Positions 18,102 to 57,958 of a DNA stretch of 59,994 nucleotides are shown here, one piece after another. The DNA lies in the IMG/VR virus record IMGVR_UViG_3300037459_000208, positions 1 through 59,994 of that record; one strand, 5' to 3'. Source of the DNA: a virus. Position 1 is the stretch's first letter, and each line of letters begins with the position of its first letter. The notes beneath the pieces are model-generated. The model was not told the DNA's origin. It saw nothing but the letters and a program-made list of their open reading frames with translations, and ran no database searches. The translations under genes were made by a program, and so were the position numbers.

Positions 18102-18452
18102 ATGAGAGAGCTTGAGGACCACTCCCTGATTGACGATGCCGCGTGGACCGCTCATCACCGCGCGGACTTGCGGTTGGACCTAGACGTCGAGCCAGCCGAA
18201 TGGGTGCGCTACGTCGATGGACTGACAAGCGATGCAAAGGGCTTTTGGCACGGCCTCACGGGCGCCCTCTCAGAGCGCGTGGGAGCCGACGATGCCTCGT
18301 GGCAGGAGATGATAGCGGTCCACGATCCGGCGCCGGCCGAGTGTGTGGGGGATACCTCCCATGATTTTTTCTACCTCATGGAGTGGCCGGGGGATTCGCC
18401 CAGGGTCCGCGCAAGGAAGCGGGGCTGCTACCAAAGGGCCATGGGCCGATGA
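18102..18452 (+). CDS. unknown protein, 116 aa
   Basis: ATG 18102 is used because the upstream extension to a TTG at 18006 has no protein-like character; no clear ribosome binding site precedes it. Acidic protein with WTAHHRADLRLDLDVEPAEW and FYLMEWPGD. Its stop overlaps the methyltransferase start (ATGA), so it may be its partner or just co-translated. Confidence 0.5.
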   Translation: MRELEDHSLIDDAAWTAHHRADLRLDLDVEPAEWVRYVDGLTSDAKGFWHGLTGALSERVGADDASWQEMIAVHDPAPAECVGDTSHDFFYLMEWPGDSPRVRARKRGCYQRAMGR

Positions 18453-19939
18453 GCGCCATCGACTGGCGCGTCGGCGATCTCCCGGAGGCGCTCGCCGACT
18501 TCGACGACAACACCTTCCACGCGTGCCTCTGCGATCCTCCCTACGGCTTAAGCGACCCGCCGCCGCCTGATCTTCTTCTCAAATGGCTTGCCGGCGAGGA
18601 CGTCGAGCACGGAGCGGGATTTCTTTCCAGAAAATGGGATAGCCTGCCGCCGCCTCCGTCCTTCTGGAGCGAGCTCTACCGCGTCCTCCGGCCCGGCGCG
18701 ATCGTGATGGCGTTCAGCCACTCCCGGACGTCCGACATGCAGACCATGGCGATGAGGATGGCCGGGTTCGAGATCCTGCCCGCCTTCGCTTGGCTTCATG
18801 CCGAGGCGCAAGCCCTCGGCGCCGACGTCGGGAAGCTCATCGACAAGGCGGCGGGGGCACAGCGGGAAGTCGTAGGAACGAAGGCGGGGCAGCCTGGATA
18901 CTCGCTCTCCGACGACTCCGGGAGCGGTTTGACGATCGGTCAAGGGCGGAGCGGGACAGGATCGGGAGATCCCGTGGCCGAATGCTCCATCACTGCCCCC
19001 GCAACGCCCCTCGCCCAGCTCTTCCACGGCCACCACAGCCGGCTGAGGACCAACTACGAGCCAATCTGCGTCGGCATGAAGCCTCTTGACGGAACGCTCG
19101 CGGAGAACGCTGCCAGGTGGGGATGTGCGGTCTTCGACGCCGAGGCGGGGCGCATTCCGACGGTGAGCGCCGAGGACGACGCGATGCTCCATTCAAAACA
19201 CCTCGAGGCGTCAGTGAATGCGCTAGGAAAAAGCTGGCTCCAGTCCGGATCTCGCGGGGGAGAGCGCGCCAACGGCTACAGCCCGGCCGGTCGCTTCCCG
19301 AGCTCGGTCCTGATAGAGCACCACTTCGACTGTCAGGACGGCGCGTGCGTCCGCGGGTGCCCCGCCGCCGTCCTCGCGGACCAGGGGGGAGAGCTTAGAA
19401 GCGGATGGACGAACGGGGGAAAGGCGGGAGCTCTGTGTTACGGGGGACGGACGGAGTACTTGCCGTATCTCCGTCTGGATCAGGGCGGTACCGCCGACCG
19501 CTTTTTCTTCCAATCCCGCCCCGTCAGGAAGGAGCGCTCCGCCGGCTGCGAGCGCATGCCCTGGGAGCGGGCGCCGGACCACCCGGACGGGTGGCGCATC
19601 GTCGACCGTGAGCGCTTCGACGACCTGCAGGAACGCGACCGCTTCGAGGGCAACCCACACCCGGCCCTCAAGTCCCTCGAGCTGACGCGCTACCTGTCCA
19701 AGCTCTTGAGGCAACCGGGAGAGGCGCGGATCGTAGTCCCGTTCTCCGGCAGCGGCTCGGAGGGCATCGGCAGCATGCTCGCGGGATGGGAAGAGATCGT
19801 GGCGTTCGAGCTGTCCGAGCAGATGGTCGAGGTGTCCCGCCGGCGCGAGGCGTTCTGGAGAGGAATTATGGACTCCGGGACCGAGGGCAGCGTGAAGGAG
19901 CTCGGCCAGCATCACCCTGAGCAGATGGGCCTATGGTGA
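18449..19939 (+). CDS. site-specific DNA methyltransferase, probably N6-adenine
   Basis: 496 residues from ATG 18449. Catalytic motif IV DPPYG is at 29-33, followed by YRVLRPGAIVMAFSHSR. A long middle region with Cys-rich stretch (HFDCQDGACVRGCPA) may recognise the target. The C-terminal VVPFSGSGSEGIG is motif I (AdoMet binding), so the order IV-TRD-I is that of the beta class. DPPY favours adenine-N6. No restriction enzyme is adjacent, so it probably protects phage DNA. Confidence 0.82.
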   Translation: MSAIDWRVGDLPEALADFDDNTFHACLCDPPYGLSDPPPPDLLLKWLAGEDVEHGAGFLSRKWDSLPPPPSFWSELYRVLRPGAIVMAFSHSRTSDMQTMAMRMAGFEILPAFAWLHAEAQALGADVGKLIDKAAGAQREVVGTKAGQPGYSLSDDSGSGLTIGQGRSGTGSGDPVAECSITAPATPLAQLFHGHHSRLRTNYEPICVGMKPLDGTLAENAARWGCAVFDAEAGRIPTVSAEDDAMLHSKHLEASVNALGKSWLQSGSRGGERANGYSPAGRFPSSVLIEHHFDCQDGACVRGCPAAVLADQGGELRSGWTNGGKAGALCYGGRTEYLPYLRLDQGGTADRFFFQSRPVRKERSAGCERMPWERAPDHPDGWRIVDRERFDDLQERDRFEGNPHPALKSLELTRYLSKLLRQPGEARIVVPFSGSGSEGIGSMLAGWEEIVAFELSEQMVEVSRRREAFWRGIMDSGTEGSVKELGQHHPEQMGLW

Positions 19940-55052: not shown

Positions 55053-55385
55053 TCAGAGTTCAAAGTCGACCCCTTCCGCGGCCTCTAGGCGTTCGCCGAT
55101 CACCCACTCCTCGATGTCGATCTCGGCTTCCTCCAGTTCGCAGCCTGTCTCACTGATTAAATCATCCTCGACTTGGTCGGCCTCTTTTTGGGTAGCCTTG
55201 ACGGCGAACACGTGGCCGCGCGCCGTGACCAGGAAGACCTTGGGCGGTTCGTCCTTCGGCATCTCCGCCAGCATCCGAACGATTTCCCCCGCCACCATTT
55301 GGAGCCCGTAGTAGGACATGCCGGAATCTTTCATCCTTCCCCTGATCCACGTCGCCAGCGTCGCGAGCGCCTCACGGTCGGTCAT
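55053..55385 (-). CDS. unknown acidic protein, 110 aa
   Basis: ATG 55385 overlaps the methyltransferase stop (ATGA). Helix LATLATWIRGRMKDSG, strand PKVFLVTARGHVFAV, acidic C-terminal helix. No family recognised. Confidence 0.55.
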   Translation of the reverse strand: MTDREALATLATWIRGRMKDSGMSYYGLQMVAGEIVRMLAEMPKDEPPKVFLVTARGHVFAVKATQKEADQVEDDLISETGCELEEAEIDIEEWVIGERLEAAEGVDFEL

Positions 55386-56476
55386 ACTACCTCCCATCGG
55401 AGTGTGTCAACGCCTGAAACCTGACACAGTTTTCGGAAAGCCATTGCGTAAACGAACGGGACCTGTCCGTCCCCAAGGGCTTCAATGCGCTCCACTCGGT
55501 CGGCCACCCCATGAGCCACTCTACCCAAGTCGGGTTCAGCGGGCCACCTGGGATGACTTCCTTCAGGTCTCGACCGCGACGCGCCAGAAGTTTCTCCCGA
55601 TCCTTGAATGCCCCGCCCGTACCGTCGCTTCTCTTCGGTGTCGGGAAGCTCTCGGCGTAAGGCTTGCGGAGCACGCCGTTCCCCGCCGTCCGGGCTTGCT
55701 CCTGATCCTGGATCGTCAGCATCGAAGCGGTGGGGGTTGGGAACCCTTTTCTCCTCAGACGCAGAGCGTCTGACTCCCGGATACCAATTACCGCCCCGAG
55801 GAGAGTCAGATTTCCCCTCTGATGTATCCTCGATGTTCCGGCGTCTGCCTTCTTCGGGGTGGGCCATCTCCTCGACATCGTCTCCAGGCTTGGCCTCCCC
55901 CGGCTCGCCACGTTGTTCCCCGTTCCATTCCCCGAGCTCCCGTACCTCGCGACGGAAGGGGTCGGGAACTCCGCGACGTGTGGCCAAGATCCAGAGGCGG
56001 TCCCTTTGGTGAGGGGCGCCGACGGAGGACGCTGAAATGCAATCCCAGACCGCATCATACCCGCTCTCGGCCAGGTCTCCGAGAATTCGTCCAAAGTACC
56101 AGTGAGCAAGGAGAGCTGGTACGTTCTCCAGGAAGACGATTCCCGGTCGTACTTCGCGAATGACCCGAATGGTGTCGGGCCACATGTTTCGACTGTCGTC
56201 CTCGCCTCGTCGCTTTCCGGCGGCGGAGAACGGCTGGCAGGGGAATCCTCCGCTGATGATGTCGACTCGTCCGCGCCATTTGGTCCCGTCGAATTGGCGG
56301 ACGTCTCCGAATATCGGGAATTCGGGGAGGAATCCGCCCCGTTGGCGAGCTCGGAGTACGTCCTGGCGGTACTGGATCCACTCGACGGCGCAGACGCACC
56401 GTTGCCCGATGAGCAACCCGCCGAGGATTCCGCCGCCAGCCCCGGCGAAAAGTTCAAGCGTCCGTTTTCCATTCAC
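55382..56476 (-). CDS. DNA C5-cytosine methyltransferase
   Basis: 364 residues from GTG 56476, which touches the lipoprotein stop (TAGTG). Motif I LELFAGAGGG (7-16), motif IV GFPCQPFS with Cys80, motif VI ENVP (117-120), motif VIII QRDR (157-160), and a C-terminal GRVAHGVADRVERIEALGDG region with LGDGQVP, where the usual motif X Asn is Asp. The middle (170-310) is variable. A single-domain enzyme of this kind modifies phage DNA against restriction. No restriction enzyme beside it. A second long frame fully overlaps it. Confidence 0.85.
   Translation of the reverse strand: MNGKRTLELFAGAGGGILGGLLIGQRCVCAVEWIQYRQDVLRARQRGGFLPEFPIFGDVRQFDGTKWRGRVDIISGGFPCQPFSAAGKRRGEDDSRNMWPDTIRVIREVRPGIVFLENVPALLAHWYFGRILGDLAESGYDAVWDCISASSVGAPHQRDRLWILATRRGVPDPFRREVRELGEWNGEQRGEPGEAKPGDDVEEMAHPEEGRRRNIEDTSEGKSDSPRGGNWYPGVRRSASEEKRVPNPHRFDADDPGSGASPDGGERRAPQALRRELPDTEEKRRYGRGIQGSGETSGASRSRPEGSHPRWPAEPDLGRVAHGVADRVERIEALGDGQVPFVYAMAFRKLCQVSGVDTLRWEVV
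55387..56472 (-). CDS. overlapping second frame within the C5 methyltransferase gene
   Basis: 361 codons, open from ATG 56472 to 55387, i.e. starting 4 nt and ending 5 nt inside the methyltransferase frame. The product is Ser/Thr/Pro-rich. It reads as a phage family that I recall as separate database entries: FAKYDRESSSWRTYQLSLL, FSETWPRAGMMRSGIAF, four [FW]PTP motifs at ~55-residue spacing, and LNPTWVEWLMGWP near the end. The ATG could use the same stop-coupled reinitiation (TAGTGAATG). If expressed it is an overprinted protein; otherwise an unusually well-preserved shadow. Expression is not shown. Confidence 0.4.
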   Translation of the reverse strand: MENGRLNFSPGLAAESSAGCSSGNGASAPSSGSSTARTYSELANGADSSPNSRYSETSANSTGPNGADESTSSAEDSPASRSPPPESDEARTTVETCGPTPFGSFAKYDRESSSWRTYQLSLLTGTLDEFSETWPRAGMMRSGIAFQRPPSAPLTKGTASGSWPHVAEFPTPSVARYGSSGNGTGNNVASRGRPSLETMSRRWPTPKKADAGTSRIHQRGNLTLLGAVIGIRESDALRLRRKGFPTPTASMLTIQDQEQARTAGNGVLRKPYAESFPTPKRSDGTGGAFKDREKLLARRGRDLKEVIPGGPLNPTWVEWLMGWPTEWSALKPLGTDRSRSFTQWLSENCVRFQALTHSDGR

Positions 56477-56931
56477 TACTCGCCCGATCTTTCCCGCCGG
56501 ATTCCGCGTAGGCTGTCATCGCCAAACTTAAAAGCGTCCCATCTCCCGCGGCAGACGTCGACCTGGTGTTGTTCGAACGTCACGAACGAGCGCAGCTTCC
56601 TTCTTTCTTGCCGCGCCCACTCAATCTTCCCCTCAAGGTCGACGACGTGAGCCAGGCAACCGCCTTCGATCTCCGTTCGGATCACGGCCTTGTCTTCCTC
56701 GCACGCCTTCGCTTCTTCCGTCAGCCGGTTGACCGAGTCGTTAGCAAGGACGTATCTCGTCTGTTCGTCGCCAAGGTCTCTGCCGAGATTCGCCACCTCT
56801 TCCTCGAGAGATGCCACCTCAGCTTCCAGGGTTCCGACAAGGTCGGGGTCGGAGCCGGCGCAACCCCCAAGGGTCAGAGCCAAAAGTGGAAAGATAAACG
56901 CTATCCAATTAGTTTCCATTTTTCGTTGCAT
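56476..56931 (-). CDS. coiled-coil lipoprotein
   Basis: 151 residues (or 147 from the second ATG). Signal peptide ending in LTLGGC gives a lipobox. A long coiled coil follows (TLEAEVASLEEEVANLGRDL). Resembles an outer-membrane spanin in topology, though longer than Rz1 proteins and without a partner beside it. Directly upstream of the methyltransferase. Confidence 0.6.
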   Translation of the reverse strand: MQRKMETNWIAFIFPLLALTLGGCAGSDPDLVGTLEAEVASLEEEVANLGRDLGDEQTRYVLANDSVNRLTEEAKACEEDKAVIRTEIEGGCLAHVVDLEGKIEWARQERRKLRSFVTFEQHQVDVCRGRWDAFKFGDDSLRGIRRERSGE

Positions 56932-56969: not shown

Positions 56970-57248
56970 TTACCACGACACCACTTCAATCGTCGATTGA
57001 CCACTCGGAGAGTAAAGCCTGATTTCGCCACCGCGACCGGATACTTGATCACGAACCATGTCGAGCGCGTTCAGGCGGTCCACGGGAGTCCCTCCGGCCT
57101 GCGCCCACTCGAGGGACGCGCGAACGTCAAAGGTTTCGACCCACAAGAGAGGCTTGCCCTGAGTATCGACCGAGACCCAAAAGTCCGCGGAAGAAAAAGT
57201 GTCCCCTTCGCGCCGGTACTGGGCGATGACTTGCAGTCCACAGATCAT
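56970..57248 (-). CDS. unknown protein, 92 aa
   Basis: ATG 57248 overlaps the upstream stop (ATGA). Beta-type first half (FWVSVDTQGKPLLWVETFDV), ending IRLYSPSGQSTIEVVSW. No family recognised. Confidence 0.55.
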   Translation of the reverse strand: MICGLQVIAQYRREGDTFSSADFWVSVDTQGKPLLWVETFDVRASLEWAQAGGTPVDRLNALDMVRDQVSGRGGEIRLYSPSGQSTIEVVSW

Positions 57249-57958
57249 TTCTTATCTGACCACCATTTGAGAACTGCGTCAAACTCATCACTGATACCCG
57301 GCGCGCGCTCGTCAATCGCGCCGGCCAGCTCTCCGAAAAGTACCATGACTTCTCGCGTGACGATCAATTGGGTTGCCGCGTCCAACCCTAGAAGCTTGCT
57401 GAGGCGAGCGCTGATTTTCTCCAACCTGTCAATGCATTGAAGCCTCAGCTCTGGGTTGTCCTTTGCCGACAAGAGTATCGCAGTCACAATCCTGGTGCGA
57501 TCCTCCGCCCGTGCCGTTTCGATGTCCGTCCACTTTTCGATAAAGCCTTCTGTGTCAGCTGCCCATTTCCTAAGAACCTTCGCCTTCATGCGGCAAGCCG
57601 CTGCGGCTGATAGGCCCGGGTTATCGTTGGCAATCTGTCTTAGAGTGAGACCAGACAGGGTTCCCTCCCAGACGATCAATTCGTGCTTCTTCCTGATAGC
57701 CTTTCGCTGAGCCTTCAAAGCGTTTTGGTGGTCTGAGGCTTTCGGGTCAATGTCTCCTGTTGTTCGGTGGTGCCGCTCGTTCCACGCTTTCTCCACCCTC
57801 GTGAAGATTGCTTCGAGCTCATCGGGCTCAACATTCAGATCGTCCGCAAGGTTGTAGATTGCTCTCCCGGGCGACGATGCAAACCTGACCACATTCGTGA
57901 CCTGATTGTTGCCGATTGCGCTATCTTCGATTGCTGTTCTTTCGTTTTCCATGTTCAC
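57245..57958 (-). CDS. second small-terminase-like protein
   Basis: 237 residues from GTG 57958 (GTGA overlap) or ATG 57952. A central helix-turn-helix-like region (LSGLTLRQIANDNPGLSAAA) and a helical body. The C-terminal 28 residues (LAGAIDERAPGISDEFDAVL, then KWWSDKK) match those of the upstream TerS (AAAIDERAPEIKEKFDAVME), so the two proteins share a tail module. Possible second TerS or a partner that binds the same target. Confidence 0.6.
   Translation of the reverse strand: MNMENERTAIEDSAIGNNQVTNVVRFASSPGRAIYNLADDLNVEPDELEAIFTRVEKAWNERHHRTTGDIDPKASDHQNALKAQRKAIRKKHELIVWEGTLSGLTLRQIANDNPGLSAAAACRMKAKVLRKWAADTEGFIEKWTDIETARAEDRTRIVTAILLSAKDNPELRLQCIDRLEKISARLSKLLGLDAATQLIVTREVMVLFGELAGAIDERAPGISDEFDAVLKWWSDKK

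Follow-up and report, generated by a model that had tools for sequence, protein, structure and literature searches.

A phage C5-methyltransferase very likely divided into two subunits, with the specificity subunit nested in the +1 frame inside the catalytic one

A C5-methyltransferase gene of a phage is open in a second frame of the same strand over nearly its full length. Both frames are selected as protein, and the selected frame switches at the border between the catalytic and target-recognition (TRD) regions; dual coding, frame-wise selection and the family relations were established by computation. It is very likely that the locus specifies a two-subunit C5-methyltransferase, a working orphan enzyme whose specificity subunit (beta, frame two) would be nested in +1 inside the catalytic subunit (alpha, frame one). 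Alpha would provide the catalytic domain with motifs I-VIII, followed by an unselected linker to motif X, and beta, from an ATG 4 nt 3' of the start of alpha, would contribute motif IX together with the TRD. Each chain would be translated separately, from adjacent GTG and ATG codons behind a common upstream stop, and the pair would assemble into an active orphan methyltransferase; phage DNA would thereby be modified, most likely against host restriction.

The window (the whole stretch of DNA analysed, 59,994 nt of IMG/VR record IMGVR_UViG_3300037459_000208) comes from a phage record of about 60 kb and has PHROG matches to portal, terminase, head and tape-measure proteins and to a RecT-like protein. 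A first-pass annotation of the sequence had described two ORFs on the same strand, 364 and 361 codons long. Both were found again, in a +1 relation, with the beta ATG 4 nt 3' of the alpha GTG and the two stops 5 nt apart (Table 1). The arrangement of codons at the junction TAGTGAATG makes coupled initiation of alpha and beta possible.

Table 1. Features of the nested locus and of other ORFs in the window
Feature	Position	Strand	Remarks
Alpha (frame one), C5-methyltransferase catalytic chain	55382-56476	-	364 aa, GTG start; motifs I-VIII and X, no IX
Beta (frame two), nested, phrog_1008	55387-56472	-	361 aa, ATG start, +1 relative to alpha
Junction TAGTGAATG	56470-56478	-	Stop TAG of upstream ORF shares 1 nt with alpha GTG; beta ATG at +4
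Alpha motif I, FAGAGGG	56429-56449	-	
Alpha motif IV, PCQ	56234-56242	-	Catalytic Cys
Beta conserved block SFAKYDRESSSWRTYQLSLLTGTLDEFSETWPRAGMMRSG	56044-56163	-	
Alpha motif VI, FLENVP	56117-56134	-	Overlies beta SWRTY
Alpha motif VIII, RDRLWI	55988-56005	-	
Target-recognition (TRD) region	55559-55975	-	Beta: [FW]PTP repeats, constrained in relatives; alpha: low-complexity, open, drifting neutrally
Beta motif IX, LNPTWVEWLMGWP	55501-55539	-	Overlies alpha EPDLGRVAHGVAD
Alpha motif X, EALGDGQVP	55457-55483	-	Usual form GNGQVP
ORF directly upstream of alpha	56476-56931	-	Stop overlaps alpha start
ORF adjoining terminase small subunit	57245-57958	-	
Second DNA methyltransferase	18383-19939	+	

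Frame one matched PF00145 (6.2e-40, 138 bits, cut-off 22) with residues 5-170 only, and phrog_363 with 7.5e-67. The catalytic motifs I, IV (PCQ), VI (ENV) and VIII are present, and their alignment columns are invariant or nearly so. Matches of frame one to Pfam and PDB profiles stop after motif VIII, with no TRD or motif IX match in this frame; the motif IX pattern was located in the +1 frame and is absent from frame one. Motif X is present, the form in the window being GDGQVP and not GNGQVP, and the tails of nested frame-one products aligned to canonical motif X (hhalign, P = 61%, E = 8e-5). The initial claim that frame one has every core motif therefore stands for I, IV, VI, VIII and X but not for motif IX, which is missing. 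Lacking a constrained TRD (see below) as well as motif IX, frame one alone would be an incomplete enzyme.

Frame two matched phrog_1008 (8e-31; residues 46-328 on positions 11-279 of a profile of 329), which is labelled 'DNA methyltransferase' in the PHROG category other. None of the Pfam or NCBIfam families matched it, and direct profile searches against Pfam and PDB returned nothing. Its relatives occur in at least 598 IMG/VR stretches, in 147 phage records and, among one-per-species genomes, in 310 stretches; the 80 best-scoring of these genome loci span at least 16 bacterial phyla as well as Thermoplasmatota archaea, and an archaeal plasmid, from Methanomethylovorans, also has one. Judged by sequence comparison, the arrangement is conserved in phages and prophages from a wide range of bacterial phyla and from some archaea. 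Patterns in frame two had been likened to those of independent phage proteins; in the cases examined, these proteins are in fact encoded over methyltransferases or beside them. Overlap with a methyltransferase is in practice the rule, always in the same +1 phase (255 of 257 loci; the halves lie side by side in the other two), in a sample largely selected by frame two. For this reason loci were also gathered by frame one alone. The records of Streptomyces phage Samy and Paenibacillus phage Tadhana have both ORFs annotated.

The proposal that the gene is overprinted was strongly supported by every computational test suggested with it, from homologues to shuffled controls. Of 300 synonym shuffles of the window alone that left the frame-one protein and codon usage unchanged, none produced a +1 frame as long as 361 codons. 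Among the loci selected by frame one, the real frame two scored above all 30 synonym shuffles in 80 of 80 (median 365 vs 157 bits), about a dozen of these loci sharing a contig with the training set according to contig names; the genome loci gave the same outcome (80/80). Stops in the +1 frame of the frame-one-selected loci numbered 172, against 518 expected, and depletion was absent from 13 methyltransferases of the ordinary kind, which carry motif IX in frame (261 stops vs 266 expected), none of which had a frame-two match. All of these loci are related, so the counts are not independent.

Selection was examined in 92 pairs of nested loci with 76-96% DNA identity, any gene being used at most twice. 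Relatives served for the measurement of constraint, since none of the nested loci compared exceeds about 60% identity to the window in the catalytic domain. An earlier dual-frame count over all pairs was saturated at doubly silent sites; it was redone on closer pairs and split into transitions and transversions, with single-chain controls, and the doubly silent sites in it are few. Over motifs I-VIII, the differences at frame-one codon positions 1, 2 and 3 were.129,.072 and.275, the normal pattern of DNA read in frame one. Over the TRD they were.368,.140 and.169, which is the pattern of DNA read in frame two. Amino-acid identity in the same pairs was 87% for frame one and 68% for frame two over motifs I-VIII, and 59% and 78%, respectively, over the TRD; over motifs IX-X the constraint acts on both frames. 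No such flip was seen in single-chain actinophage methyltransferases, where the ratio of position 3 to position 1 is 1.7-2.0 over the full length. Staggered genes, in which only the second frame is open downstream, showed the same flip as nested ones (0.31 and 0.37, respectively), and it was also found in very close pairs (0.24) and in loci with GC <53% (0.40).

Amino acids of frame one are hardly or not selected in the TRD, since transitions that change frame one and are silent in frame two were as frequent as doubly silent ones (.188 vs.192; the transversion ratio was.72). Frame one is kept open there, with 18 stops observed vs 547 expected from shuffles that preserve frame two, and is uninterrupted in 148 of 153 loci (8 expected); it would therefore be read through a near-meaningless stretch to motif X. 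Selection on frame two extends over its whole length, because changes that alter it and are silent in frame one are suppressed in the N-terminal half too. Over motif I the SN/SS value of frame two was.36 for transitions and.26 for transversions; the same measure in single-chain controls gave 1.14 and.57. The beta start codon is likewise under selection beyond what alpha needs: where frame one begins with start-Asn-G.., the codon for Asn2 is AAT, which makes the frame-two ATG, 112 times and AAC 3 times, while AAT accounts for 28% of the other Asn codons of the same loci.

Relatives with other architectures point to the part of the enzyme that frame two would supply. Motif IX of beta, NPTWVEWLMGWP, was assigned via homologues in which this segment precedes motif X. 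In the single-chain proteins ShiLan gp70, Stultus gp4 and RitaG gp71, one frame runs from motif VIII into (L)LPTPxxxD repeats, on to FxEWMMGxPxGW or a near variant and then to GNGV(V/C)P (motif X); another single chain (L369) reads VIII, WPTPTAQDGK, QLNPDWVECLMGFPIGWTDI and KALGNAV, i.e. VIII-PTP-IX-X. In the staggered pairs (Blue7 gp92/91, Myxus gp85/84, Familton gp7/6, Samy, JaNo, L201, L222 and L228), alpha terminates past motif VIII, and PTP repeats, an EWMMG/EWLMG motif (IX) and then motif X follow in the +1 ORF. The +1 ORF of the nested type, to which the window belongs, ends after motif IX, and motif X stays in frame one.

Motif IX was sought by profile-profile comparison because PF00145 had no match on the staggered betas. 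The nested frame-two motif aligned with the C-termini of single-chain phage proteins (P = 97%, E = 6e-11), which in turn aligned with canonical motifs IX-X (P = 95%, E = 3e-8), as did staggered frame two (P = 80%, E = 1.5e-5); the direct comparison of nested frame two with canonical motif IX was not significant (P = 0.7%). The motif IX pattern matched nothing in 14 of the frame-one-selected loci. Eight of these were read: seven have variants of the motif, for example NFIQHVMGFP and TEWMMAWP, and in the eighth (L136) an HNH sequence is inserted. Of the remainder, two have a near-consensus motif under a looser pattern and two others are truncated by the contig end. Taken with the single-chain and staggered relatives, nested beta is very probably the TRD and motif IX half of a C5-methyltransferase, and not the unrelated Ser/Thr/Pro-rich protein for which it could be taken at first sight.

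The AlphaFold2 model of frame two alone had a mean pLDDT of 54 and no confident fold, and Foldseek found no PDB match for it. In the model of a single-chain relative, the catalytic and motif IX-X parts were confident (blocks >90) and the PTP/TRD region was unmodelled; this model matched M.HhaI across the whole chain.

The main rival to a two-subunit enzyme is a doubly frameshifted single chain, in which frame one would be translated through motif VIII, a slip would lead into frame two for the TRD and motif IX, and a second slip would lead back to frame one for motif X. The order of the selected frames (one, two, both) is the order that such a product needs, and true fused single chains are known in actinophages. 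Two slips of opposite sense would be required, however, and three features do not fit: the N-terminal half of frame two is constrained though unused in the slipped product, the frame-two ATG is conserved at +4, and frame one is open through the TRD, which a slip-and-return product does not need. We therefore regard programmed frameshifting as very unlikely. That frame two encodes a separate protein with a job of its own, for example a regulator or an anti-restriction factor, overprinted on the methyltransferase, seems very unlikely. It would suit the conservation of the N-terminal half beyond the TRD and motif IX and the absence of a confident solo fold, but frame one would then be left without a constrained TRD and without motif IX, and the same segment is the C-terminal half of the methyltransferase in relatives.

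The third positions of frame one might instead be held by a DNA or RNA element, such as a packaging site or a regulatory structure, and the 5' end is indeed conserved nearly at the DNA level (TGAATGAGYTGGCTCTTTTCGCRGGCGCTGG) in many loci. We consider this highly improbable, as doubly silent changes are frequent in the catalytic region (~.33) and frame-two-changing ones are not (.10-.14), and an Rfam search of the window found nothing. Finally, the notion that frame two is a mere shadow, with motifs forced by the conserved motifs of frame one and GC-rich codon use, deserves next to no credence: the shadow is real and substantial, synonym shuffles keeping a median of 157-168 bits on the frame-two profile, yet it does not explain a frame two that outscores every shuffle, that is better conserved than frame one in the TRD even in the GC-poorer loci and that persists beyond frame one in staggered loci, so that shuffles and codon-position flip together rule it out.

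In a report by Lee et al. in NAR in 1995, the small chain of M.EcoHK31I is said to be encoded in another frame inside the gene of the large chain. This enzyme (YGGCCR) is a natural two-polypeptide C5-methyltransferase whose large chain carries motifs I-VIII and X, with the predicted TRD assigned to it, and whose small chain carries motif IX only (PMC3404938). The window pair resembles it in having motifs I-VIII and X in the large chain and, as seen via single-chain and staggered relatives, motif IX in the nested chain; it differs in that the constraint on the TRD sits in the nested small chain, and the likeness is drawn here from the division of motifs. From this placement of motifs and TRD, the pair may be expected to work like M.EcoHK31I with another division of the TRD. 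In small Enterobacteriaceae restriction-modification plasmids, a possible source of M.EcoHK31I, the methyltransferase was annotated as one gene and no split pair was seen. The other two-polypeptide case, M.AquI (CYCGRG), has a small chain made of the distal TRD and motifs IX-X (PMC3404938). The staggered relatives Blue7 gp92/91, Myxus gp85/84, Familton gp7/6 and L201 are similar to it, with motif X in the small chain, whereas the window pair is nested and has motif X in the large chain.

A hidden HNH endonuclease, the ShiLan domain, lies out of frame within a mycobacteriophage methylase gene, as a mobile and patchily distributed insertion read in the third frame (PMC11855218). It shares with frame two the placement of a second protein out of frame inside an actinophage methylase gene; unlike the ShiLan-domain HNH, frame two contains no HNH and would be part of the proposed enzyme. 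A comparable insertion was observed at L136:2925-4469 (IMGVR_UViG_3300036713_000251), where an HNH-endonuclease-like sequence, CELCGSVKNLQMHHKDRD...LCASCHNRHH, follows motif VIII in the +2 frame and the beta frame is open through it to motifs IX and X; a third frame may be coding here, which brings the ShiLan domain to mind. The literature searched contained no account of PHROG 1008 and PHROG 363 as two frames of one locus, nor a description of the enzyme part supplied by phrog_1008, and the overlap, although widespread, is apparently undescribed there. One literature match to phrog_1008 was a prefix match to phrog_10089 and was discarded.

Annotation usually discards long same-strand overlaps, and it is difficult to demonstrate that a partner frame is functional. 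The present evidence comes from comparison, with relatives that carry these domains on a single polypeptide or in staggered genes acting as internal controls. The locus is probably among the most widespread long gene-in-gene overlaps of prokaryotic viruses, one in which the two products would be obligate subunits, selection is handed over at a domain border, the losing frame stays open but drifts, and nested, staggered and single-chain forms interconvert. If this is correct, the annotation of hundreds of phage and prophage methyltransferases describes half an enzyme or uses the wrong frame and has missed the specificity domain, and the family amounts to a natural experiment on two frames sharing DNA and on the passage between split enzymes and fusions. 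It would also follow that the annotated methyltransferase protein alone, recoded, is an inactive enzyme.

In a tree of the catalytic domain (79 rows), nested forms occur on either side of the deepest (midpoint) split. Single chains are concentrated in one clade (100/99), which they share with staggered forms and whose nearest relatives are nested, and staggered forms are scattered (11 changes). The nested form may be older, with fusions and splits by frame change coming later; the root of the tree is not fixed and no direction is claimed. The tree fits several origins, i.e. frame two born on frame one, a single chain split by frame change, or the reverse.

Two further loci have irregular architectures. 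In Mycobacterium phage Jarcob (L090), gp69 and gp70 look as though ShiLan (L089) gp70 had been broken close to motif VII; motif VIII, the TRD and motifs IX and X pass to the +1 frame, such that the frame-two N-terminus and the methyltransferase C-terminus form one ORF. The break may be a natural split, decay or a sequence error. In a Paenibacillus viral contig (L356), an apparent in-frame deletion fuses alpha motifs I-VIII to the beta TRD and motif IX, with no motif X.

The 151-aa ORF directly upstream of alpha has a lipoprotein-like N-terminus (LTLGGCAGSD) and a coiled-coil-like stretch, and a PHROG search gave no match for it. The 237-aa ORF that adjoins the terminase small subunit matched phrog_645, labelled Rnase E (2.8e-7); given the packaging context, this label may be wrong for it. 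The second DNA methyltransferase of the window, on the strand opposite to the C5 gene, matched phrog_67 and phrog_6025 and, weakly, N6_N4_Mtase, and has a long spacer between its halves.
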